DNA of 35,713 bases from a virus. A program made the position numbers and the translations under genes. Positions within the stretch are counted from its first letter, which is position 1, and each line of letters begins with the position of its first letter. The DNA lies in the IMG/VR virus record IMGVR_UViG_3300044808_000083, positions 1-35,713 of that record. The stretch is one strand, 5' to 3'. Under the pieces are notes generated by a model that saw only the letters and a list, made by a program, of their open reading frames with translations, did not search any database and was not told the origin of the DNA. Positions 6,652 through 34,895 of the stretch are shown here, in pieces.

Positions 6652-6881
6652 CGCCGCGCCCTCCGGCTTTGTTTCGTTAAGGCCCGCTCGATCACGTCCG
6701 CGACCGGCCGCTCGCCCCAGCCCGATCCTTCGATGGAGCCGTTCTTTGTCTCAAAAACGAGCCGCGTCGCCCGGACGCCATCGCCACTTGTGAAAAGTTC
6801 TTTCGCGATTAGCCGGGCCAATCTGCGTTCGGCGTTGGGCGTTCGGCGTTGGACGTTGGACGTTTTCCCCGTCTTCCTCAT
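6648..6881 (-). CDS. Small early protein with repeat-encoded N-terminus
   Basis: A 77-residue protein. Residues about 6-19 (NVQRRTPNAER) are translated from the heptamer array at 6825-6866. The rest includes IAKELFTSGDGVRATRLVFE and a basic tail (TKQSRRARR). The start overlaps the MuB-like stop (ATGA). The ancestral start may have been further in, with the repeat later pulled into the frame. Confidence 0.5.
   Translation of the reverse strand: MRKTGKTSNVQRRTPNAERRLARLIAKELFTSGDGVRATRLVFETKNGSIEGSGWGERPVADVIERALTKQSRRARR
6825..6866. repeat. Heptamer array (gcgttcg/gcgttgg/acgttgg)
   Basis: Six consecutive 7-bp units of the form RcgttSg or similar, with no spacer. It lies inside the 5' end of the coding region at 6648-6881. 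Its unit differs from the other arrays but the period is the same. Confidence 0.9.
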
Positions 6882-7984
6882 GACTCGCCTCCCAGCTTCT
6901 TCACGATGTCGTGCGCCTGGACGAAGTGATCCCAGGTGAACCGCTCCTTCTTCCCGCGCGCCAGGTTCTGACCGCTTTCCAGGAAGAGCACGTAACGCTT
7001 GAATCCGTGATCCTTCGTTACCTCCTGCACGATCTCCGCCGCGAGGCCGCTCGGATCGTCCAGGTGGAAGTGCGCCGCGATCGCTTTCAGGTCCTTCTTC
7101 GGGAGGGCGCTCGGCAGCTGCACCTCGAGGATCCCGCGCTCTTTGAATTGCGCCAGCAAGTCAAGGTGCTGCCCCATCATCAGCTCCTCCTTCAGCTTTT
7201 GCGTGCCGAAGAGAACCATCCCGCAGCCGCGCCGGTCGTGGATCTCCCGGATCACCTCGAGACACTTGATCGCGCTGCCGCGCTGGTAGCTCAGGAACAC
7301 CTCGTGCAGCTCGTCCACCAGCAGTAGGTGCGTCTCGTCGATCGCGTTCAGCACATACTCGCGCAGGTTCTCGAAGCAGCTGTTCGGGTTTACGAAACAG
7401 GCGCGCGCAAATTCCTTCATCATCAGCTGCACGCCCGCGCTCGCCGGCAGCCGCACATACTTCGTCTTGCCGTGGTTGTTCACCGGCTGCGCCATGTAGG
7501 CCAGCTGCGCGTCGCTCTTGCCGATATGCGTCCGGCCGTAGACGAACGCCATCGTGCGCGTGCTCCTCGCGAAATCGCACGCCGCCCAGATCTTCTTGCT
7601 GATCGACGTCGGCACGAACAGCTTCCCGGTCCGCTGGCTTACGTCCTGGAACTTGTTCCGGTAAGCCGCGATCCGCGCCACGATGCTGTCCAGCTTCGCC
7701 GCGTAGGTGCCGCGAAAGACACGGAAGAGCGTGCTGTCATCGATGCCCGTCTCCGTCTCGAGCCGGGCGAGGGACCAATGCCGATGTTTCGCGAGCGAGA
7801 ACAGCCAGCGGATCGTTTCCCGCTGGTCCTCCGGCAGCTCCGCCGTCGCCTGGATAACTTCGTCGCCTCCCAGTCGGATCACTTGCGCCTCGTCGCCGTT
7901 GCGTGCGGGGACGATGGTGCGGCCGTGATTTTCGTCCGGCTCTTCGTTAGGCGAAGTCTTCTGCTCGGTAGGTGTTTTCGGCAT
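6878..7984 (-). CDS. MuB-like AAA+ ATPase (transposition target selector)
   Basis: A 368-residue protein. Residues about 55-120 form an HTH-like N-terminal domain (LARLETETGIDDSTLFRVF). The ATPase core has Walker A GRTHIGKS (150-157) and Walker B LLLVDELHE (D224, E225), with a FGT sensor-type strand further on. In Mu, MuB coats target DNA as ATP-dependent filaments and delivers it to MuA. The start at 7984 is preferred (AGGA upstream, modest overlap with the transposase). An in-frame start at 8041 would give 387 residues. It lies directly downstream of the transposase, as in Mu. Bacterial TniB/ExeA-type ATPases are relatives, but the context favours MuB. Confidence 0.85.
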   Translation of the reverse strand: MPKTPTEQKTSPNEEPDENHGRTIVPARNGDEAQVIRLGGDEVIQATAELPEDQRETIRWLFSLAKHRHWSLARLETETGIDDSTLFRVFRGTYAAKLDSIVARIAAYRNKFQDVSQRTGKLFVPTSISKKIWAACDFARSTRTMAFVYGRTHIGKSDAQLAYMAQPVNNHGKTKYVRLPASAGVQLMMKEFARACFVNPNSCFENLREYVLNAIDETHLLLVDELHEVFLSYQRGSAIKCLEVIREIHDRRGCGMVLFGTQKLKEELMMGQHLDLLAQFKERGILEVQLPSALPKKDLKAIAAHFHLDDPSGLAAEIVQEVTKDHGFKRYVLFLESGQNLARGKKERFTWDHFVQAHDIVKKLGGES

Positions 7985-9875
7985 GGTTTGGTCCTGTGCT
8001 GTAGAGAGCGGCGAGACCTTCTCCGTCGTCGTCCGCCTCATCTGGTGGCGATGCTTCCGCAGGGTCCAACTGCGGTGGTGGCATCAAGTCTTCGATGGAT
8101 CCGCGCTCAGCTCTGAGCCGGGTGCGATCGCGCGTGGAGATCGCTTTTTCTTCTGCTGTGAAAGGTTTCGTTAGGTCGATGGCTCGCGCATTGTTCAGGT
8201 GCATCGCGCGCTTCTTCTGCGCCTGGCCCATCGCCCGCCGGCGCAGGGGCGCCAGCATCTCCGCCTCGATTTTTGCCGCGCGGCCGCACGATTCATGCAG
8301 CGCCTGGACATTGCTTCTGCAAACGCTCTGCAGCCGGTCCAGCGTCGCCACATAGCGGCCCTTCGCGTCGAAGCAGGTCAGCCGGCGCGTGTCGAACGGA
8401 TTCAGCACCGTCAAATATTTCCCGCGCGGTGGCAGCTGATGCGCATCGAACCGGAGCGGATCGCCGCTGATCTCGCTGTTCTTCAGCTCGATCATTCCAT
8501 TCCGGATTTGCCGCTCTTTCCCGTTCGCGGTCCCAATGATCAGCGCCGCCGTCTCCGGGCTGATCGTCTGCAGGGCACGCCGGCCCTGGTTCCAAAATTC
8601 TGCCGGCGACATCCGCCGCATCCGGCCAGTCGCGCGATCCGGCACGTAACGTTCGTCCCAGCCCTCCAGGTCGTGCTCCGTCCGCGCGTTGATCCGCGCG
8701 TAGAGCTCCTGCAGCACCACCTTGAATTGCTGGAGCGAACAGAGCGGCCATTGGATCCACTCGATCCGCTCCGGAGGCAGCTGCGAAAGAGCCAGGAGAA
8801 GCGCGTCGTTATGCTTCCGCAGCCCGTGCTGTTCCTCGGGGCAATGCTGCCGGTCCTTCCCGGTTTGCCCTGGCAGATAGGCCAGCTCGTTGTGAATCAG
8901 GTTGCCGAGCGACTCGAGCGCCGCCTTGATCCGGAAATTCCCTTTGCTCCGGCCGGCGTATTGCCCCGCGTGCGCCGCGGCGCCTTGCATTCCGCCCAGC
9001 TCGAATTTGATCGCGCCATTCGTCGCGCGCGTGATCAGCCATTGCAGCTCCTCCGGGATTGTCGTCGTTCCGTGCTCGAGCACGATCGTCGTCCCGCGCG
9101 GATGATAGCCATCGGTGAAAAGCGAGCCCGCCAGCAGAAACCGGAAGTCCGCGGTCTTCAGCGATTCATGGACGCCGTCCACTTCGCGCCGCACGCGCAC
9201 GCCCCAGCAGTGTTTGTAACCCGACGCCAGATCCAGCCCGTGAAATTCCAGCGGCCGGCCGCGCTGCTGCGTCGCCAGCAGATTTACTTCGTGATCGTGC
9301 CAGATGTCGTCGTAGAGAAAATATTGGCCTACGTAGAGATCGCGCCGTGTCGTGTAAACCAGCGGCCGATGCCCCGCCGCGGCCGAGCGCCCTTCCCGCG
9401 CCGCCTTTAGTTCAAACTCGCTCGGCGCGTAGCGCGCCAGGTTGCGCTTGCTCCATCCGCGCGGATAACCGGTCTGCACATCGAGCGGCTTGTCCGTCTC
9501 CACCTCGCCCTTCTTCCAGGCCCGGCGCAGCGCATCGAGCGCCGCTTCGTTGTTGCGCTGGTAACGCTCGCAATACGTCTTCACCAGCTCCTGGTCCGCG
9601 TGCGAAAGCCCGATCCGTTCCTCCACGTTCCAGAACTCGGGGCCGGCCGCCCGCCGATCGATGAGGCCTGCGAATCCGCACTCGAGATAACGATAAAACT
9701 TTTTCGCGACCGTCTTGAACGGCACGTCATGCTTGTCCGCCAGCGCCTGCAGCGCCGCCACGCGTCCCTTCTTTTGGGCCTCGAGCGGGATGAACCGCTT
9801 CTCCCAATCCAGCGCGTCCTTCTGGATCGCCTCCGGAAGTGACGCGAGCAGCTCAGTGGAAATTTCGTGTGACAT
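7947..9875 (-). CDS. Mu-type DDE transposase (MuA-like, rve core)
   Basis: A 642-residue protein, close to MuA (663). Residues 1-75 look like an HTH region (KHDVPFKTVAKKFYRYLE). The integrase-like core spans about 180-345, with candidate acids D190 (FLYDDIWHD), E267 (VLEHGT) and E321 (ALESLGN). Spacings of 77 and 54 compare with 67 and 56 in MuA (D269, D336, E392). The middle acid appears to be Glu, not Asp. After the core come a beta-barrel-like region (about 400-520) and an acidic, disordered tail (DEADDDGEG) that could contact MuB. It would catalyse end cleavage and strand transfer for integration and replicative transposition. Upstream and downstream gene boundaries are tight. Confidence 0.9.
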   Translation of the reverse strand: MSHEISTELLASLPEAIQKDALDWEKRFIPLEAQKKGRVAALQALADKHDVPFKTVAKKFYRYLECGFAGLIDRRAAGPEFWNVEERIGLSHADQELVKTYCERYQRNNEAALDALRRAWKKGEVETDKPLDVQTGYPRGWSKRNLARYAPSEFELKAAREGRSAAAGHRPLVYTTRRDLYVGQYFLYDDIWHDHEVNLLATQQRGRPLEFHGLDLASGYKHCWGVRVRREVDGVHESLKTADFRFLLAGSLFTDGYHPRGTTIVLEHGTTTIPEELQWLITRATNGAIKFELGGMQGAAAHAGQYAGRSKGNFRIKAALESLGNLIHNELAYLPGQTGKDRQHCPEEQHGLRKHNDALLLALSQLPPERIEWIQWPLCSLQQFKVVLQELYARINARTEHDLEGWDERYVPDRATGRMRRMSPAEFWNQGRRALQTISPETAALIIGTANGKERQIRNGMIELKNSEISGDPLRFDAHQLPPRGKYLTVLNPFDTRRLTCFDAKGRYVATLDRLQSVCRSNVQALHESCGRAAKIEAEMLAPLRRRAMGQAQKKRAMHLNNARAIDLTKPFTAEEKAISTRDRTRLRAERGSIEDLMPPPQLDPAEASPPDEADDDGEGLAALYSTGPNHAENTYRAEDFA

Positions 9876-10286: not shown

Positions 10287-11159
10287 TTAGGCCCCTTGCT
10301 TTTTCATCTGCTTCGCTAGCTCGGCACGCAGGATCTCGTCGCGATCGGTTTTTGACTTCCTTCTCCAGGCCCGCGCCTTCACCGCGACGGTGTCTGCTTC
10401 TTCGATCAGCAGATCCAGCTCGGCATCGTTGAGGCACCGGAACGATTCCGTCCGCGCGATGCCGCCCAGCTCCGTCGCCGTGTTGCAGACGTTCTTCCGC
10501 ATCAACGCCAGCAGCTCGCGCTGGCCCAGCCTGGTCCGTTTCCCTTTCGTTCCGTTCCGCTCGTATTGGTTACCGCCCGTCGTGCTCGGAAAATCCAGCA
10601 TCAGCTGATACGACCCGCGGCCGCCGACCCAGGCCGCGATCTTCGCCACGACCGGATGTTTCAGATCGAGCTGGAACTCCCGCAGCGCCGCCACCGATTC
10701 TGCCAGGTCGCGGGTAAGAGATTGAAAAGCGACAGTGCTGTCGCTTTTGCTAAAAGCCTTCGCCAGGCGCACGTAGCGCTCGGCCGTTTTGATGCTCTTC
10801 GGGAAGTTCTCTTTCAGCCATTTCCGGTAGGTCCCATGCTCGCCGTTCGCTTTGACCTGGAGAAGAACCAGCCCTTTCAGCGTCGCGCAGATCCCGCTTA
10901 GGTTTTCGTATTCGCCCTCCAGCCGATCCAACCCATTGTAAGCTTCCGCCAGCTGGGCCAGCGACATGTCCACCAGCGCCACCGGATGCGCTCCGTTCTG
11001 CGAGTTTGGAGCTTGGAGCTTCTCTGGAGCTTGGAGCTTGGAGCTTGGAGCTTGGACCGAAAGAGTTTCCCGATTCGCGATGGGTTGTTTGGGTTCTATC
11101 CGCGCGTGTCCCGGTTCATCGGGAGTCGTTAGGCGGTCGCGTTTCGGGAAAGTTTTCAT
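10287..11159 (-). CDS. DUF3102-like early protein
   Basis: A 290-residue protein. Residues about 75-150 fit the DUF3102 pattern: a long helix (LEGEYENLSGICATLKGLVLLQVKA), the HGTYRKWLKENF segment and KTAERYVRLAKAF. DUF3102 proteins are phage and plasmid proteins with predicted DNA-associated roles. The N-terminal region (about 35-55, VQAPSSKLQAPEKLQAP) is encoded by a heptamer array and is probably not conserved. The C-terminus is helical and basic. It sits upstream of the transposase, where Mu carries accessory early genes. Confidence 0.6.
   Translation of the reverse strand: MKTFPKRDRLTTPDEPGHARIEPKQPIANRETLSVQAPSSKLQAPEKLQAPNSQNGAHPVALVDMSLAQLAEAYNGLDRLEGEYENLSGICATLKGLVLLQVKANGEHGTYRKWLKENFPKSIKTAERYVRLAKAFSKSDSTVAFQSLTRDLAESVAALREFQLDLKHPVVAKIAAWVGGRGSYQLMLDFPSTTGGNQYERNGTKGKRTRLGQRELLALMRKNVCNTATELGGIARTESFRCLNDAELDLLIEEADTVAVKARAWRRKSKTDRDEILRAELAKQMKKQGA
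11002..11058. repeat. Heptamer array (gagcttg)
   Basis: About seven 7-bp units related to gagcttg, interrupted once by ctctg. It is read through in frame inside the DUF3102-like gene. A closely similar array occurs at 23160-23215. Confidence 0.9.
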
Positions 11160-11165
11160 CGCGCG

Positions 11166-11372
11166 TTAGTTCAGAACGTGGAAAGCGCGCTGGCCATTTG
11201 CCCAGCCGAAGATCAGGGCGCGCGTCCGGTAGATTGCGCCGGCGACGTTGAAGTAACGGACGTCCAGGAAGATCGTGATCGCCCCGCCGGTTCCAAAAGC
11301 TGAAACGCTAAAATTCTGAGACGCTGAAATTTCAGCCTTTTCCGATTTCAGATTTTCAGCGTTTTCACTCAT
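11166..11372 (-). CDS. Small early protein with repeat-encoded N-terminus
   Basis: A 68-residue protein. Residues 1-25 (rich in Ser/Glu/Ala, e.g. NLKSEKAEISAS) come from the repeat at 11297-11366. The remainder has a strand-rich core (GAITIFLDVRYFNVAG) followed by a helix. The start overlaps the upstream stop by 4 bp. The function is unknown. Confidence 0.45.
   Translation of the reverse strand: MSENAENLKSEKAEISASQNFSVSAFGTGGAITIFLDVRYFNVAGAIYRTRALIFGWANGQRAFHVLN
11297..11366. repeat. gctgaaa/ttcagc repeat cluster
   Basis: Interleaved gctgaaa-type and ttcagc-type units in both orientations, so the cluster could fold as a hairpin. It encodes the N-terminus of the gene ending at 11166. The same words recur at 22451-22515 and 28550-28581. 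Confidence 0.75.
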
Positions 11373-11746: not shown

Positions 11747-11898
11747 GGCGCCTCCTCTGGCTTGCGAATATCCCCGACGAGCAACCGATCCAGGACCGGC
11801 AGATCTTCCGGCTCGAGCTGCGGCGCCGGCTCATAGCGCAGCCGAAACGCCAGGAGCGTTTCCTCGATGCCGATGGGAGTCAGGATTCGGTCCATCAT
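11743..11898 (-). CDS. Small early protein, coupled start and stop
   Basis: A 51-residue acidic protein (MMDRILTPIGIEETLLAF...) with tandem ATG codons at 11898 and 11895. The first overlaps the upstream stop (ATGA), and the stop at 11743 overlaps the HTH gene start (ATGA). A Shine-Dalgarno sequence for the HTH gene (AGAGGAGG) lies within its last codons. Coupling at both ends supports it as real. The function is unknown. Confidence 0.55.
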   Translation of the reverse strand: MMDRILTPIGIEETLLAFRLRYEPAPQLEPEDLPVLDRLLVGDIRKPEEAP

Positions 11899-12068
11899 GA
11901 CGAAGCCAGTGACGAGTGACGTGTGACAAGTGACGTGCGGGCCGCGTCGTAGAGCGCTTCCGCTCGCGCCACTGGCATCACAAACTCACGCGCGACCGTC
12001 GCGATCGATTTCCCGCGCCGGACCGCGCAGTAAATCGCGCGCGCTTTTAAAGGGAGCGGCGACGTCAT
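11895..12068 (-). CDS. Small HTH-like protein with repeat-encoded tail
   Basis: A 57-residue basic protein. Residues about 8-40 (KARAIYCAVRRGKSIATVAREFVM) resemble a single helix-turn-helix with a hydrophobic core. The last ~15 residues (SLVTRHSSLASS) are translated from the heptamer array at 11908-11935, so the original C-terminus was probably shorter or different. It is coupled on both sides by 4-bp overlaps. Confidence 0.5.
   Translation of the reverse strand: MTSPLPLKARAIYCAVRRGKSIATVAREFVMPVARAEALYDAARTSLVTRHSSLASS
11908..11935. repeat. Heptamer array (agtgacg)
   Basis: Four 7-bp units: agtgacg twice, tgtgaca, agtgacg. It forms the 3' coding end of the gene at 11895-12068. The reverse complement resembles the gtcact units at 14932-14959. 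Confidence 0.9.
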
Positions 12069-12289
12069 GATTTCAGCAGCTCCCGAAATTTCAGCTGATC
12101 CTTTGCGATCAGTTCCAGCTGCGCGTCGCACTCCGCGCGTGTCATGATCAGCTGACGGAGCCGCTCCGCCGCCGGATGCTCGCCCGCGAAAAACATCATC
12201 CCCTGCAGAAATTTCAGGCAATCGCGGTTCGGCAGCTCGAGCGCGGCCGCGACCGCGTTCTGAACAAAGAATTCCTCTTTCTCGTTCAT
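12065..12289 (-). CDS. Small acidic helical early protein
   Basis: A 74-residue helical, acidic protein (EEFFVQNAVAAALELPNRDCL...). It follows the Ner-like gene with a 4-bp overlap. No recognisable motif; it may be a partner of the neighbouring DNA-binding proteins. Confidence 0.55.
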   Translation of the reverse strand: MNEKEEFFVQNAVAAALELPNRDCLKFLQGMMFFAGEHPAAERLRQLIMTRAECDAQLELIAKDQLKFRELLKS

Positions 12290-18258: not shown

Positions 18259-19748
18259 ACGCGATCGTCGAAGACATTGCGGAGATCGCGCCGCCTGGCT
18301 CGGAGCCGCTCGTTCCGTTCCGGAATTATCAGCAGCCCGTCTTCTGGGATCACATCACCAAGACGCTCATCCTTCATTGGTCCCGCCAGATCGGAAAGAG
18401 CTACACGCTCGCCGGCTGGGCCGTCGATCGCTTGCTTCGTTATCCCGGCCGCCTGGTCACCGTTCTTTCCAATTCGCGCGATAACGGTGCCGAGTTCGTA
18501 ATCAAGTGCCAGGAGGTTTGCCAGAAACTCGGCCAGGCCATCGAGGTCGAGGATCTCTCGCGCGACATCTCCTACGATGAGATGCGCTTCGAGATCAAGA
18601 TCACCGTCGGCGATCGCACCGGCCGCATAAAAGTCCTGGCGGCGAATCCCCGCACAGCTCGCGGCTTTTCCGGCGATCTCATCCTGGATGAGTTCGCTTT
18701 CCACGAAAACAGCCGCGCCATCTGGGAAGCCGCCGAGCCGATCATCTCCGCGAACAAGGATTTCCTGTGCCGCATCGCCAGCACCGGCAACGGCCGCACC
18801 AACATGTTCTATCAGCTCATCAGCGAAGGCCGGATCCCGCTTAACCGGATGCGCCGCTCGGAAGCCTGGCGCATGGGCGAGCTGAAAATCTATTCCGCGA
18901 TCGACGGCCGCGAGATCACGCCGGATGAAGCGCGCGCCGAGTCGAGCGACAAACGTGCCTACGATCAGAACTACGAGTGCGCCTTCGAAGATGAGAACAT
19001 GCCGCTTCTCACCCAGGAGCTCATAAGCGCCGCCGAGCGTTCGCTCATTTCCATCGATCGCCAGCAGTGGAGCGAAGTTTCACTTGCGCGCATGCACCGC
19101 GCGGAAGGCGAGATCTTTCTCGGCCAGGATTTTGCGCGCACCCAGGATCTTTCAGTCCAGGCCGTTCTCGAGATCGTCGGCAATCTGAAGCGCACCGTCG
19201 GCCTTCTTGTCATGACGAACACGCGCACGCCGGCGCAGCTCGCCCAGCTCGCCTTCGTCGCGCAGCTGCCGAAGTTCCGCAAAGCCTCGCTCGACATGAC
19301 GGGTAATGGCCTCGGCCTTTTCGAATTCGCAGAGGACGCGGAGTGGGGCGGGCCCGATCGCATCGAAGGCGTCAACTTCTCTTCCACTGAGCCCGTGAGC
19401 GATCTCATCCGCACGCAGGGCCGCAAGGCGCCCACCGCGCGCGTCACCGAGATAATGGCCACTAACCTCGTCGCCGTCTTCGAAGATCGCGCCATCGAGA
19501 TCCCGGCCGATCCGGAATTGCGCGACGACTTGCGCAAGCCGGAGAAAATCGTTTCGCCTGGCGGCCGCGTCTCCATCGCCGCGGCTCGAGACGCCGCCGG
19601 CCATGCCGATTTCTTCTGGGCCTATGCGCTGGCAAATCGCGCCAGCGAAACAGTCGGCACCGTTGGCACCTTCTTTCCGTTCGGCGATCGGCAATCTTCC
19701 GGATCCTCTCGTTCGGAGCTCCGTCACTCGAGAAAACTATTGGGATGA
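18255..19748 (+). CDS. Terminase large subunit (Mu gp28-like)
   Basis: A 497-residue protein. The ATPase domain has Walker A SRQIGKSYT (about 43-51) and Walker B LILDE (D145, E146). The RNase H-like nuclease domain has candidate acids D292 (GQDFART), D347 (SLDMTGNG) and D452 (GHADFFWA). It would power DNA translocation and cut concatemeric or integrated DNA, as expected for Mu-like headful packaging. The GTG start at 18255 has a strong Shine-Dalgarno sequence (GGAGGG) and a 4-bp GTGA overlap; the upstream ATG at 18207 lies within the previous gene. Confidence 0.9.
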   Translation: MNAIVEDIAEIAPPGSEPLVPFRNYQQPVFWDHITKTLILHWSRQIGKSYTLAGWAVDRLLRYPGRLVTVLSNSRDNGAEFVIKCQEVCQKLGQAIEVEDLSRDISYDEMRFEIKITVGDRTGRIKVLAANPRTARGFSGDLILDEFAFHENSRAIWEAAEPIISANKDFLCRIASTGNGRTNMFYQLISEGRIPLNRMRRSEAWRMGELKIYSAIDGREITPDEARAESSDKRAYDQNYECAFEDENMPLLTQELISAAERSLISIDRQQWSEVSLARMHRAEGEIFLGQDFARTQDLSVQAVLEIVGNLKRTVGLLVMTNTRTPAQLAQLAFVAQLPKFRKASLDMTGNGLGLFEFAEDAEWGGPDRIEGVNFSSTEPVSDLIRTQGRKAPTARVTEIMATNLVAVFEDRAIEIPADPELRDDLRKPEKIVSPGGRVSIAAARDAAGHADFFWAYALANRASETVGTVGTFFPFGDRQSSGSSRSELRHSRKLLG

Positions 19749-20050
19749 GCACTTCTCTCTTAATCCCGGATCCTCCCACTCCGCCGAAGCGGCTCATCAA
19801 AGTCGTTGGTGGGATCGCGGCTTACGCACTCTGCGATGACGGAAAGATTCGTAAGGTCAGGCTTCAGCAAGGCCAGGCCCGCAAGCTCCATAATTTCGTG
19901 AAGCACAATCTCTGCGGCGGAGTGATGAAGCTCTCCTTCGAAAGTTGCCAGATCGTCGCCGACCAGCAGCCTCCCTGCCCTGGCTTCTGGTTCCGGCTCC
20001 GCCAAAAACTCTCCGGCTTCCGTTTCCCGAATCTGAAATCTGCAATCTGA
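19745..20050 (+). CDS. Small protein between terminase and portal
   Basis: A 101-residue protein that starts 4 bp inside the TerL gene. Residues about 17-65 are a compact mixed region (LIKVVGGIAAYALCDDGKIRK, KLHNFVKHNLC) with Cys residues; the C-terminal ~20 residues (FRFPNLKSAI) are largely encoded by the heptamer array. I do not recognise the family. Confidence 0.5.
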   Translation: MSTSLLIPDPPTPPKRLIKVVGGIAAYALCDDGKIRKVRLQQGQARKLHNFVKHNLCGGVMKLSFESCQIVADQQPPCPGFWFRLRQKLSGFRFPNLKSAI

Positions 20051-20058
20051 AATCTGCA
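20031..20058. repeat. Heptamer array (atctgMa) before portal
   Basis: Four units alternating atctgaa and atctgca. The last unit ends directly before the portal ATG at 20059, so the usual Shine-Dalgarno position is repeat sequence. Confidence 0.95.
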
Positions 20059-21582
20059 ATGCTCTCCTCCTTCCAACTCGACCAGATCAACCCCCTCCGC
20101 GGCCTTGACCAGGCTGGTCTCATCGCGCTGCAGGAAAACGCCATGCGCGGCTACTACGCCCGGCTCATGTGGACCTATTTCTTCTTCGAGAAAAAACATC
20201 CCATGGTCCGCGCCGTGAAACGCCGCCTCCTCTCTTCGTTAGGCTCGCTGAAGTGGGACATCAAACTCGCCGACGTCGGCGAAGACTCCGAGAAAAAGGC
20301 TATCGCTGAGCGCCAGGCCCAGACGTTGCGCGCTGCTTATGACGCGATCGCGAATCTGCGCGACGCACTGAACTTCCTGGCGCTCGGCGAGCTCCGCGGC
20401 TTTTCCCACCTCGAGAAAATCTACCGCCGCGGCGCTCCTCAATCTGCAATCGGCAATCTGAAATCTGCAATCGATCACGACCCCTGGGACGTGATCGAGC
20501 TCCGCCCAGTCGAGCAATGGTTCTGGTGTCGGCAAGGTTTCTACGGCGCCTGGCTCTACAACAAAGAGGCGCGCGAAGTGAACACCGGCGCCGCGATCGA
20601 TCCTGCTCACTTCGTCATTCACACGGTGCAAGATCCGGCCGATGAGATCTTCGCTGAATACGCCATCAAATCGAAAGTGAACGACGCCGATTGGGACGGC
20701 TTCCTCGAGGATTACGGCGTGCCGCCGCTCTTCTTCGGCATGCCGCCAAACGTCCCGGCGTCAAAGGAGGCTCTCTACCAGCAGCAGGCCGAGCTCACGG
20801 TCTCGCGGGCCCGCGGCGCCGTGCCGCATGGCACCACTCTCCTTTCTCCCAGCGCCACCGGATCCGGCGGCGCCGGCGTTTTCTCCGAGCGCCTCAAATA
20901 CATCGACGAGCAAATAGTTATCGCCGGCACATCCGGAAAGCTCACCGTCATTGCCGAATCCGGATCCGGCACTCTCGCCGGCGGCGCGCAGAAAGAAGCG
21001 TTCGACGAAATCGCCCAGGCTATCGCCGATGAAATTTCCGGCGTAATGCAAAAGCAATTCGATCTCCCTCTTCTCAAGCGCACGCATCCCGACGAGCCGG
21101 TCCTCGCTTACTTCGAGTTCGCGGCCGTCGACGAAGAAGAGAGCGGCAAAGTCCTGGAAGATGCCGGCAAAGCGAAGGACGCCGGCTTCATCATGGACGC
21201 TGCCGAGCTCAGCGAAAAGACCGGCTACAAGCTGACGCCTCTGCCGCCATCCGGAAGTCAGAAGTCAGAAGTCAGAGGTCAGCCCTCTTCTGCTTCGCCG
21301 ACCTCCGATCTCCGACCTCCGATCTCCAGCGCGCCGGCGCCGGATCCCGAACAAATCAACGCCCTCTTCAGTTCTGCCGTGCAGCAGCTCGCCGAAGCAG
21401 AGGCCGCCGATCTCGAACCGCTTCGCCGCGCCCTCGAGTCAGCTGTCGCCGATCCCACTCCCGAAAAACTGCAGGCCCTGCTCGATCAACTTGCCGAGAT
21501 CCAATCCCAGCTCGGCATTCGCGCGGCCGAAGTCCGCCAAAACATTCTCGGCACCGCGCTCGTCACCGGCCTCACGACATAG
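20059..21582 (+). CDS. Portal protein (DUF935, Mu gp29-like)
   Basis: A 507-residue protein. The portal pattern of Mu gp29/DUF935 is present: GYYARLMWTYFFFEKKHPMVRAVKRRLLSSL, the VGEDSEKKAIAERQAQTL helix, DPWDVIELRPVEQWFW, GFLEDYGVPPLFFGMP and a long tail. It would form the 12-fold DNA gate at the head vertex. The ATG at 20059 is chosen because everything upstream overlaps the previous gene. Residues about 128-139 and 399-423 (SEVRGQ, TSDLRPP) are encoded by repeat arrays inserted in frame, so these loops must be tolerated by the fold. Confidence 0.85.
   Translation: MLSSFQLDQINPLRGLDQAGLIALQENAMRGYYARLMWTYFFFEKKHPMVRAVKRRLLSSLGSLKWDIKLADVGEDSEKKAIAERQAQTLRAAYDAIANLRDALNFLALGELRGFSHLEKIYRRGAPQSAIGNLKSAIDHDPWDVIELRPVEQWFWCRQGFYGAWLYNKEAREVNTGAAIDPAHFVIHTVQDPADEIFAEYAIKSKVNDADWDGFLEDYGVPPLFFGMPPNVPASKEALYQQQAELTVSRARGAVPHGTTLLSPSATGSGGAGVFSERLKYIDEQIVIAGTSGKLTVIAESGSGTLAGGAQKEAFDEIAQAIADEISGVMQKQFDLPLLKRTHPDEPVLAYFEFAAVDEEESGKVLEDAGKAKDAGFIMDAAELSEKTGYKLTPLPPSGSQKSEVRGQPSSASPTSDLRPPISSAPAPDPEQINALFSSAVQQLAEAEAADLEPLRRALESAVADPTPEKLQALLDQLAEIQSQLGIRAAEVRQNILGTALVTGLTT
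20441..20475. repeat. Heptamer array inside portal gene (aatctgM)
   Basis: Five 7-bp units (aatctgc, aatcggc, aatctga, aatctgc, aatcgat), encoding residues about 128-139 of the portal. The reading frame is preserved. Confidence 0.9.
21254..21281. repeat. Heptamer array inside portal gene (gaagtca)
   Basis: Three gaagtca units and one gaggtca, in frame in the C-terminal part of the portal gene. Confidence 0.9.
21299..21326. repeat. Heptamer array inside portal gene (cgacctc/cgatctc)
   Basis: Four 7-bp units alternating cgacctc and cgatctc, 17 bp after the gaagtca array and still inside the portal frame. Confidence 0.9.
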
Positions 21583-21607
21583 GTCCTATCGGTCCTATAC
21601 CGTCCCA
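21581..21607. repeat. Nonamer array before MuF gene
   Basis: Three 9-bp units (aggtcctat, cggtcctat, accgtccca) spanning the portal stop and MuF start, with no Shine-Dalgarno sequence. The same family occurs at 31132 and 33497. Confidence 0.85.
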
Positions 21608-22458
21608 TGAAATTCAGTGAGCCCCTCGAGTTCTCCGAAGCGCTCGATCAGGCGCGCAATCGCGGTCTTCTCCCCACCACAGCAAACAGCGCGCAGATCG
21701 CCGAATGGGAAGATGAACTCAAGCGGCTCTCCGTCTTCTCCGCGCGCACCAATCACGCCGGCTATCTGCAGGACATCAAAGACAAAGTCCTCGGCCTGCT
21801 CGGCGGCGAGTATAACGAAGCCACTGCTCGCGCTGCTCTCCAGGATCTTCTCGACTCGTTAGGCTACACGCCCGAGCGCGGCTTCCCTCAATCTGAAATC
21901 GACAATCTGCAATCTGCAATCCCTCCCGCGGAACGCGGGAGCTTGCGCGATCTCTCGAGTAACAAACGTGCCCAGCTCGTTCTCCGCACCCAGATGCGCC
22001 AGATGGCGAATCGCGGTTATCGCGAGCAGGGCAACACGCCCGCTGCACTCTTCGCCTTTCCCGCCTGGGAGCTCGTCCGCATCTACCCGCGTGCCGTTCC
22101 TCGAGAGGATTGGCCCGAGCGCTGGATCGCGGCCGGCGGCAAACTTTACGAGGAAAGAATGATTGGCGCGAAGAACGATCCCGCCTGGATCATGCTCGGC
22201 AGCCGCGAACTTTTCGACGACGCCATCGGCACCGATTATCCTCCCTTCGCTTTCAATTCCGGAATGGGCTGGCGCCAGGTCTCCCGCGCCGTTTGCGAAA
22301 AGCTCGGCGTCAATGTGGGAGGGGCCTCAGCGCCGCGACCCGCTCCACCGCTCGATGACGTCCAGGTCGCCGCAAAGTTCGATCCCGAATTCCTGCGCGA
22401 GCTGCGCAAACAACTCGACATCGAGATCAGCGACGGCGTCGCGAAGTTAAAACGCTGA
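21607..22458 (+). CDS. Minor head protein (MuF-like)
   Basis: A 283-residue protein. It has the pattern of gpF-type head morphogenesis proteins: NKRAQLVLRTQMRQMANRG, ALFAFPAWELVRIYPR, REDWPERW and GTDYPPFAFNSGM. Such proteins lie on the portal or inner head surface and can help DNA ejection. Residues about 95-105 (FPQSEIDNLQSA) are repeat-encoded. The start is in repeat sequence, so translation may depend on coupling to the portal. The last ~30 residues (ELRKQLDIEIS) are helical. Confidence 0.8.
   Translation: MKFSEPLEFSEALDQARNRGLLPTTANSAQIAEWEDELKRLSVFSARTNHAGYLQDIKDKVLGLLGGEYNEATARAALQDLLDSLGYTPERGFPQSEIDNLQSAIPPAERGSLRDLSSNKRAQLVLRTQMRQMANRGYREQGNTPAALFAFPAWELVRIYPRAVPREDWPERWIAAGGKLYEERMIGAKNDPAWIMLGSRELFDDAIGTDYPPFAFNSGMGWRQVSRAVCEKLGVNVGGASAPRPAPPLDDVQVAAKFDPEFLRELRKQLDIEISDGVAKLKR
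21889..21923. repeat. Heptamer array inside MuF gene (caatctg)
   Basis: Five 7-bp units (caatctg, aaatcga, caatctg, caatctg, caatccc), in frame in the MuF-like gene. Confidence 0.9.
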
Positions 22459-22515
22459 AAAACGGAAACGCTAAAATGCTGAAATCAGACTCCCCATTTC
22501 AGCGTTTCAGCTTTT
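22451..22515. repeat. gctgaaa/ttcagc repeat cluster before gpG-like gene
   Basis: Units of the aacgctgaaa type and, after a short spacer, tttcagcg in the opposite orientation. The two halves can pair as a hairpin across the junction between MuF and the next gene. The word family matches 11297-11366 and 28550-28581. Confidence 0.75.
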
Positions 22516-28526: not shown

Positions 28527-28549
28527 CGCTCTAAAATGGAAATCCGGAT

Positions 28550-28581
28550 TTCAGCTTTTCAGCCTTTCAGCCTTTCAGCTT
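28550..28581. repeat. Octamer array (ttcagcYt) before gp36-like gene
   Basis: Four 8-bp units (ttcagctt, ttcagcct twice, ttcagctt) ending eight bases before the next start; there is no Shine-Dalgarno sequence in between. Confidence 0.9.
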
Positions 28582-28588
28582 TTTAAAA

Positions 28589-29044: not shown

Positions 29045-29147
29045 CAGAGGTCAGAAGTCAGAGGTCAGAAGTCAGCGCTCCTTCCGCGTTTTCTACTTTC
29101 TACTTCCTACTTTCTACTTCCGCCGACCGCCGACCTCAGACCTCCGG
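29045..29147. repeat. Multi-word heptamer array before gp37-like gene
   Basis: Units cagaggt/cagaagt (29045-29072), then tctactt/cctactt (29092-29119), then ccgccga, cctcaga and cctccgg (29120-29147). At its end, cctccggagg makes a palindrome that supplies the GGAGG Shine-Dalgarno for the next gene, eight bases before the ATG. Confidence 0.9.
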
Positions 29148-29855: not shown

Positions 29856-29904
29856 CAATCTGCAATCTGAAATCTGCAATCTGAAATCTGCAATCTGAAA
29901 TAAT
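29856..29904. repeat. Heptamer array (caatctg/aaatctg) before tail tube gene
   Basis: Seven 7-bp units; the longest run of one word in the window. It ends three bases before the tail tube start at 29908, with no ribosome binding site. Confidence 0.95.
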
Positions 29905-33496: not shown

Positions 33497-33561
33497 TAGG
33501 TCCCATCCGTCCCATTAGTCCTATTCCCTCTGACTTCCGACCTCCGATCTCCGACCTCTGA
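33497..33561. repeat. Nonamer plus heptamer array (taggtccca; cctccga)
   Basis: Nonamers taggtccca, tccgtccca, ttagtccta, then heptamers cttccga, cctccga, tctccga, cctctga that run directly into the next ATG. It is the twin of 31132-31200. Confidence 0.9.
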
Positions 33562-34895
33562 TGTCCGCTCCCTATTCCATCTACGCCGGTGCCTCGAACC
33601 TGGGCACGCTTGACGCCCTCCGCTGCAGCCGCGCGCTCGTCACCACTACCGCCCAGGGCAACGACCTCATGGAGCTCACCGTCTCGCGCGACATCGCGGC
33701 CGCCATGCCTTTCACGCCGCTCGCTCGCCATAAGCTCGTCGATAGCGAAGGCGATACGCGCTTCGTCGGATGGTTGCTCGAGCCGCCCCGCCGCGCCGCT
33801 GGTTCGCGCCACGAGCACATCTACCGCTTCAGCGGTCCCTGGGCCACGTTCCTCGATCGCACAATCTTCCGGCAGACCTCACAGTTTCCCGTTCACGAGG
33901 AGGGCGAAGAGCCGACGACGATGCCGCTCTCCCTCATCCTCTTGAACTACCGGATCGGCACCGGCGGCGTCGGCATCAAGGCCCAGATCGAGGAGGCGCT
34001 CGACTACGCGAAGGACGCTTGCGGCGATCTCTTCAATTACAACACCACCGCGCTCCCCACCGTCATCCCGCCCGCCGACGAGCAGGCCGATCGCACCGTC
34101 TCCGAGATCGTCCGCAGCCAAATGCGTTGGTGCCCCGGCGTCAGCTGCTATTGGAATTATCCCACCGATGGCGGCGTGCCGGTCCTCACCTTCGTCGCCG
34201 CGCCCACCACGAAGACCATCGACATCCAGGACACCAACGTCACCGGTTTCATCGGCCATCCGCGCTACGATCTTCTCATCCCCAAGGTGCGGCTCGAATA
34301 CCTCACCGAGATCTCCGAAGTCGCCGCGCCTACCGAAGAGGAACCCGATGCCACCGCGAAGATCTGGACCTTGATCGGCGTCGACGAATCCACCGAGGCG
34401 AATGGCGCGTTCGGCGCGGTCGAGCACACCGTCGTCCTCCTCAAATATAACGGCACCCTGCAGGACGCTCCCGTCGGCCTCGCCGCTCAGTTGCATGCTC
34501 CCTACAAAACCCTTTCCACCGAGCTCGCCTGGCAGCGGCACGGCGCCGAGGTCGATTGGGTCGATCATCCCGCGGCCGCTAAGTGGAACGTCACCGGCGC
34601 CGGCAGCGCGTTCACCGCCTCCGAGGGCGTTTGCCAGGCCATCGTCCGCGATCTGCACACCGGCACCGTCGCCTATAAGTGCGGCCCGCCCTCGCACCTC
34701 GGCCTGAACGACCTGCTCGCCTTGCTCCGCATCAATCGCAAACGCTCCAGCAACAATCAGAGCGACGGCTTCGAAGGTTCAAGCGAAGGCGAAGGTGAAG
34801 GCGACGGAGAGCTCGAGGAAGTCACCGGCGCCGTCAACGGCGTCCCCTCCACTCTCCAGGTAATGACCGACGGCAACGGCTGGACGGCGATCTAA
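33561..34895 (+). CDS. Tail-tip/baseplate hub-like protein
   Basis: A 444-residue protein. It follows the tape measure and has a strand-rich N-terminal half (RFVGWLLEPPRRAAGS, YRFSGPWATFLD) of the kind seen in distal tail and hub proteins. A low-complexity acidic segment (EGSSEGEGEGDGELEE) near the C-terminus precedes VTGAVNGVPSTLQVMTDGNGW. It may be the hub that opens the tail. Enzymatic motifs are not visible. Confidence 0.55.
   Translation: MSAPYSIYAGASNLGTLDALRCSRALVTTTAQGNDLMELTVSRDIAAAMPFTPLARHKLVDSEGDTRFVGWLLEPPRRAAGSRHEHIYRFSGPWATFLDRTIFRQTSQFPVHEEGEEPTTMPLSLILLNYRIGTGGVGIKAQIEEALDYAKDACGDLFNYNTTALPTVIPPADEQADRTVSEIVRSQMRWCPGVSCYWNYPTDGGVPVLTFVAAPTTKTIDIQDTNVTGFIGHPRYDLLIPKVRLEYLTEISEVAAPTEEEPDATAKIWTLIGVDESTEANGAFGAVEHTVVLLKYNGTLQDAPVGLAAQLHAPYKTLSTELAWQRHGAEVDWVDHPAAAKWNVTGAGSAFTASEGVCQAIVRDLHTGTVAYKCGPPSHLGLNDLLALLRINRKRSSNNQSDGFEGSSEGEGEGDGELEEVTGAVNGVPSTLQVMTDGNGWTAI

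Follow-up and report, generated by a model that had tools for sequence, protein, structure and literature searches.

Heptanucleotide arrays read in frame in the portal and MuF-like genes of a Mu-like phage

Genes and heptad arrays of the window

The window, by which we mean the whole stretch of DNA analysed here, is a 35,713-bp IMG/VR record (IMGVR_UViG_3300044808_000083, G000) in which MuB-like and MuA-like genes lie on the minus strand (6881-9875; profile matches to PHROG 296, E=4e-26, and PHROG 310, E=3e-14, respectively), followed on the plus strand by terminase, portal and head genes; judging by these sequences, it is a Mu-like transposable phage. The portal gene (20059-21582, plus strand, 507 aa) matches PF06074 in a profile search (E=5.1e-31) and belongs to the Mu-like portal family by this match, by its AlphaFold2 model and by Foldseek, which returned the JBD30 and Mu portals as the best matches of that model. 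Lying 3′ of it is a MuF-like minor head gene (21607-22458, plus strand, 283 aa), recognized by this position, by the homologues L320, L327, L004 and L322, and by a weak match to PHROG 220 (E=0.042, against 2.7e-6 for the relative L320). A Pfam search returned no match for the window gene, whose putative name MuF is owed only to these relatives. Homologues from the same clade (L327 4686-5948 and L320 4298-5578) carry C-terminal ADP-ribosyltransferase (PF03496, E=5e-10) or PBECR3 nuclease-like domains, the latter assignment scoring under the Pfam cut-off, and the window protein is without a tail of either type.

An earlier note on this DNA had described four 7-bp arrays as coding sequence that leaves the frame unbroken, and Tandem Repeats Finder together with a codon read-out bears this out, with stops absent from the used frame in all four. 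Each lies on the plus strand, and three are inside the portal gene. A CAATCTG array of 4.7 copies (20440-20472) encodes residues 128-138 in loop 1 (QSAIGNLKSAI). A GAAGTCA array of 4.1 copies (21254-21282) and a CCGACCT/CCGATCT array of 4.3 copies (21298-21327), the second an imperfect reverse complement of the first, encode residues 399-408 (GSQKSEVRGQ) and 414-423 (PTSDLRPPIS) of the C-terminal linker. The fourth, again CAATCTG in 4.7 copies (21889-21921), encodes residues 95-105 (QSEIDNLQSAI) of the MuF-like protein, within a stretch of variable length in the alignment, and is read in the same register as the array of portal loop 1. These in-gene arrays span 29-33 bp and their copies are imperfect (76-95% matches). 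We considered and rejected the idea that the inverted linker pair acts as a hairpin or terminator: the two arrays do pair (-27.3 kcal/mol), with a z of -1.6 that falls within the shuffle range.

Only a minority of the window's arrays are inside genes. Tandem Repeats Finder located about ten more period-7 arrays beyond the four, mostly between genes, and the units of the window are CAATCTG/AAATCTG, GAAGTCA, CCGAYCT, GAGCTTG, GCGTTGG, AGTGACG and TTTCTAC. An intergenic sister of the CAATCTG arrays (20030-20060, plus strand) is closed by TGA in two of its three frames; it supplies the last residues and the TGA stop of ORF 19745-20050 and adjoins the portal ATG at 20059. Another intergenic sister array, AATCTGCAATCTGA (29856-29901, plus strand), has stops in all three frames, and an intergenic cluster of three arrays (CAGAAGT, TTTCTAC and CCGACC; 29045-29146, plus strand) shares two of its three words with the portal linker. 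Two further arrays touch predicted ORFs, a CCGACCT/CCGATCT array that overlaps the start codon of ORF 33561-34895 (33527-33567, plus strand) and a GAGCTTG array (11002-11056, minus strand) that is read in frame close to the N-terminus of the minus-strand ORF 10287-11159. The last residues (TSLVTRHSSLASS) of the short minus-strand ORF 11895-12221 are encoded by a GTGACGA-type array. A second repeat class, with a period of about 8 (TTTCAGCG / AAACGCTG), stands beside the 7-bp class at the intergenic positions 11300-11367, 22450-22515 and 28549-28583, the first two as inverted pairs.

Array sites in the portal fold and among related portals

The suggestion that the arrays might fall in loops of predicted structures holds for the portal, whose arrays lie in a loop and a linker of the AlphaFold2 model (mean pLDDT 80.8). 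Residues 123-144 form a coil between predicted strands 115-122 and 145-151, with a pLDDT of 55-66 in loop 1 against 94-97 in its flanks, and residues 400-425 have values below 50. The MuF-like model (pLDDT 47.5) is too poor for placing the array; in the alignment the array stretch differs widely in length among homologues. One might suppose that the array peptides were selected for a virion function, such as a portal-MuF or scaffold contact, and that QS(A/E)I(G/D)NL(K/Q)SAI is for this reason found in both proteins, in keeping with the common register and rare unit of the two in-gene AATCTG arrays. However, the model is of low confidence and structureless at the array residues, these sites are empty or hold unrelated peptides in other portals, and similar peptides arise in unrelated proteins wherever such arrays are read; we regard selection of this kind as very improbable.

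For comparison we assembled 123 distinct Mu-like portals, drawn from 45 of 289 Verrucomicrobiota genomes and from 80 loci of an IMG/VR scan; phage GenBank records yielded one distant portal only. The only near-identical genome of the window phage, L003 (IMGVR_UViG_3300049432_000142), matches the window over 6,951 bp with 0 mismatches, and its arrays are all identical. The sole difference over this length lies in the terminase gene (window 19231), where L003 is 9 bp shorter, in frame, at a CAGCTCGCC direct repeat. Identity of the arrays in L003 bears on phase variation, in which a change of array copy number would turn the head genes on or off as in the prophage gene neuO (PMC13001214), a known case, and for which any single-unit change of a coding 7-base array would indeed be a frameshift. 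Neither L003 nor the other near-identical comparisons, many of them redundant, contain a changed array; moreover, the arrays are short and imperfect, and their positions within these essential structural genes are internal or late, away from the 5′ end. Phase variation was rejected as highly unlikely, copy-number change not being seen in what are thin data.

The earlier note had also allowed that these could be ancestral loops, shared by homologues at matching positions. Arrays are absent from the window's array sites in the nearest portals, L004, L327 and L320, and L004 (63% amino acid identity in the portal protein) contains no array in its 9.3 kb. Loop 1 is 9 aa long in about half of the portals, 17 in L327 and L320, 24 in L004 and 26 in the window. 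The array-free loop of L004 therefore suggests that loop extension came before the array or in parallel with it, as would be the case if these were ancestral loops of the portal and MuF family, repetitive in looks only. The predominance of the 9-aa loop in the 123 portals, the unrelated words found at the same sites elsewhere, and the intergenic presence of exactly the same words in the window all stand against this, and on the 123-portal comparison we rejected ancestry as the source of the repeats, a reading with scarcely any probability. Because the L004 loop is just 2 aa shorter, the loop-1 array replaces as well as adds; on the alignment, it is an addition and a replacement within a loop of already varying length. 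As for the precise insertions that the earlier note proposed to look for, the segments add to or replace sequence within loops of variable length and are not precise inserts in conserved sequence. For this phage we found no pair of filled and empty sites with near-identical flanks, the nearest empty relative having 72% nucleotide identity.

Across the portal set, 14 lag-7 arrays occupy just three positions. Two are loops, one following the first strand (window residues 72-78) and the other being loop 1 (132-144); the third is the C-terminal tail, defined as the part after the last conserved column. By length variability, the junctions that hold the 4 internal arrays rank 1 or 3 out of 377; the other 10 arrays are C-terminal. 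This ranking was limited to the 101 array-free portals because arrays themselves create gap columns, which makes an occupancy permutation partly circular. The description of the arrays as lying in otherwise conserved head proteins is accordingly half right, since their positions fall in the non-conserved parts.

The words at these sites change between relatives. GGAGACC is the word of L346, whose 6.2 kb contain arrays of it at both window portal sites and in two more positions. At one loop, L068, L098 and L099 carry the words GGTGTCAG, GGTTCAG and GGTKAWC, these being three copies from one genome and perhaps not independent; the L098 and L099 portals are 89.9% identical in nucleotides yet have different words, and the same loop is empty in their relatives L066, L101 and L102. 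L067 is longer than L101 by 48 nt at 86.5% nucleotide identity, and the arrays of L067 and L098 are degenerate and under the detection threshold. Members of another phage gene family (L201, L203 and L242, 78-81% identical in amino acids) have two different words or none at one site. In all such cases turnover in place is indistinguishable from fresh insertion. A 2,713-aa ORF on another viral contig (L290 2662-10799) holds eight in-frame heptad arrays of several words.

Origin and persistence of the in-gene arrays

The words of the window are widely distributed. A 28-base CAATCTG/AAATCTG string recurs exactly in Acidobacteria, Verrucomicrobia, Planctomycetes, Armatimonadetes, cyanobacteria, Flavobacterium and others, and RRGTCAG arrays are present in 52 of 289 Verrucomicrobiota genomes (a reversed control being near zero in most) and in at least 120 viral stretches. 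The arrays also have preferred ends and lengths: MAATCTG arrays begin at M in 85 of 137 cases, AATCTG array lengths peak at 32-34 bp, and 143 of 232 RRGTCAG arrays end after RR or RRG. This phase bias and length peak point to discrete cassettes, in a manner that is suggestive only. In the bacterial genomes G003 and G004, AATCTG arrays often form pairs whose members face opposite ways and lie tens to about 200 bp from each other, which resembles a bounded element. The distinct heptad words have a weak TCAG-like core in common when set against letter-shuffled controls.

The excess is specific to period 7. A lag scan of the window found 13 arrays at lag 7 and 1 at lags 5, 8, 10, 11 and 13 together. 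The 123 portals (195 kb) hold 14 lag-7 arrays, in 11 portals, and 0, 0, 0, 1, 0, 0 and 1 arrays at lags 5, 6, 8, 9, 10, 11 and 13, and codon-shuffled portal genes contain 0 lag-7 arrays. Chance is ruled out because the excess is found at lag 7 and the other lags are without one; in window and portals alike, 7-bp units exceed other unit lengths, as in heptanucleotide long repeats. Slippage of heptanucleotides tied to polymerase contact length has been proposed (PMC4679880, PMC4692102), and short seeds might have expanded on the spot into arrays through replication slippage, frame-neutral expansions alone being kept; sites with different words could then reflect turnover of words in place. Inside genes, however, slippage should favour periods 6 and 9, both of which are almost absent, and it does not readily give the same words at several distant places of one phage and across phyla, nor the single start phase and clustered lengths of the AATCTG arrays. 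Growth in place is distinctly unlikely on this evidence. We infer that the arrays come pre-formed because the frame-friendly periods 6 and 9 are almost absent from the array-bearing genes.

After deduplication, 126 of 458 arrays of IMG/VR viral loci (27.5%) are in coding sequence and a random-insertion filter predicts 33.5%; for bacterial loci the figures are 27 of 169 (16.0%) against 37% expected. These expected shares assume random landing, a p(open) of 0.51 and one length in three keeping the frame. Genes were called with a home-made program, the loci had been chosen for their array words, and each array was taken to arrive in a single step with a random length; the expectation depends on all three. 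In the contigs of four Verrucomicrobiota genomes, 1 of 47 arrays is in coding sequence. The arrays are thus dispersed and mainly intergenic, as heptanucleotide repeats are, with about 72% of viral-contig and 84% of bacterial arrays outside coding sequence; the in-gene share needs no targeting to be explained, and bacteria show extra purging.

The unit tails of the AATCTG arrays point in the same direction. Of 239 units, 116 end in TGC, 111 in TGA and 12 otherwise, and GGC and GAC tails occur among them only in the window's portal and MuF-like arrays, at the very points where a TGA or TGC codon would otherwise be read. The missing TGA/TGC codon is, as far as sequence can tell, a direct trace of the stop filter. 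Since this rare unit and the register are common to both, one of the two arrays was probably copied from the other. The earlier note had left a choice between selection for in-frame copies and an insertion mechanism tolerant of coding DNA. Selection is favoured, solely as survivorship, because the in-gene share fits the filter prediction and the TGA/TGC codon is absent from both AATCTG arrays; there is no sign of a mechanism that recognises coding DNA or frame.

In sum, the best reading, and in our judgement a probable one, is that pre-formed heptad arrays are dispersed and then pass a survivorship filter in genes. Heptanucleotide arrays would be widespread in soil and sediment bacteria and their phages, with copies reaching genomes roughly at random and each genome having a few favoured words, scattered and mostly intergenic. 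Copies landing in genes would persist only if their net length keeps the frame, if the frame in which they are read is free of stops, and if they sit in a loop or linker of freely variable length. In the window phage, the copies that pass this filter would be those of portal loop 1, the C-terminal linker of the portal and the variable stretch of the MuF-like protein. The arrays look like tolerated newcomers rather than working parts, because related viruses have different words at the same spots, and no function in the head proteins is needed. A bolder version of the process, which we hold only tentatively and think rather unlikely, is that the arrays are discrete mobile cassettes, each about 4-5 heptads long and with ends set by phase, and that an undescribed process writes the genome-specific word into new sites, genes included, so that homologous sites are rewritten as lineages diverge. 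If true, such cassette rewriting would supply ready-made loop sequence to phage structural proteins.

Relation to known repeat systems

Prokaryotes have a recognised class of long simple sequence repeats with heptanucleotide units (work of Mrazek and co-workers, described in PMC4679880 and PMC4692102). The arrays analysed here resemble them in being tandem 7-bp units, many copies to a genome and mostly intergenic; in many genomes heptamers are the commonest of the long repeats. They differ in that each genome has many words, with alternating variants, and in that the arrays occur in phages, where loops of a single family of structural proteins contain them in frame again and again. The TAACTGA repeats of Beggiatoaceae (PMC4679880) and the GGGAATC and GGGGA(C/T)T repeats of Xanthomonas and Nostoc (PMC4692102) are likewise dispersed heptamers near gene ends or starts, some of them in ORFs in a stop-free orientation, and are found in distant phyla. 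They are single fixed words, whereas the words of the present arrays vary, and relatives can differ in the word that a given site holds; TAACTGA is not among the units that Tandem Repeats Finder reports for the window, and the main window words are without quadruplex-forming G runs. The TAACTGA repeats stand just upstream of start codons; in the window one array adjoins the portal ATG (20030-20060) and another overlaps that of ORF 33561-34895 (33527-33567), but the short intergenic gaps of phages would lead one to expect such positions in any case.

Two other systems place repetitive DNA inside genes. Rickettsia palindromic elements (work of Ogata and co-workers, reviewed in PMC10969869) are selfish repeats inserted in frame in unrelated protein genes where the fold tolerates them. 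The likeness lies in this in-frame repetitive DNA, yet those elements are about 150 bp long and encode a conserved peptide, whereas ours are tandem heptamers of 29-33 bp, of which only the pair at 21254 and 21298 is inverted, with a fold that is not significant. In prophage CUS-3, neuO has 3-53 AAGACTC units at its 5′ end and is phase variable (PMC13001214). There too a 7-base tandem repeat serves as coding sequence in a phage-borne gene; here, by contrast, 4-5 imperfect units stand in loops, and variation was not seen in the near-identical genomes compared.

Arrays of 7 bases cannot expand unit by unit inside genes, yet they outnumber codon-friendly periods in these portals, which therefore offer a clean test bed for the spread of heptanucleotide repeats, a process unexplained in the cited literature. 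They also illustrate a route from non-coding repeats to protein loops, and they carry a warning for metagenomic proteins, in which low-complexity heptapeptides like EVRGQRS or QSAIGNLKS come from reading through repeats and are not motifs. Set beside these known systems, what looks new is that the same portal loops are used in frame time and again, with changing words, in many phages.
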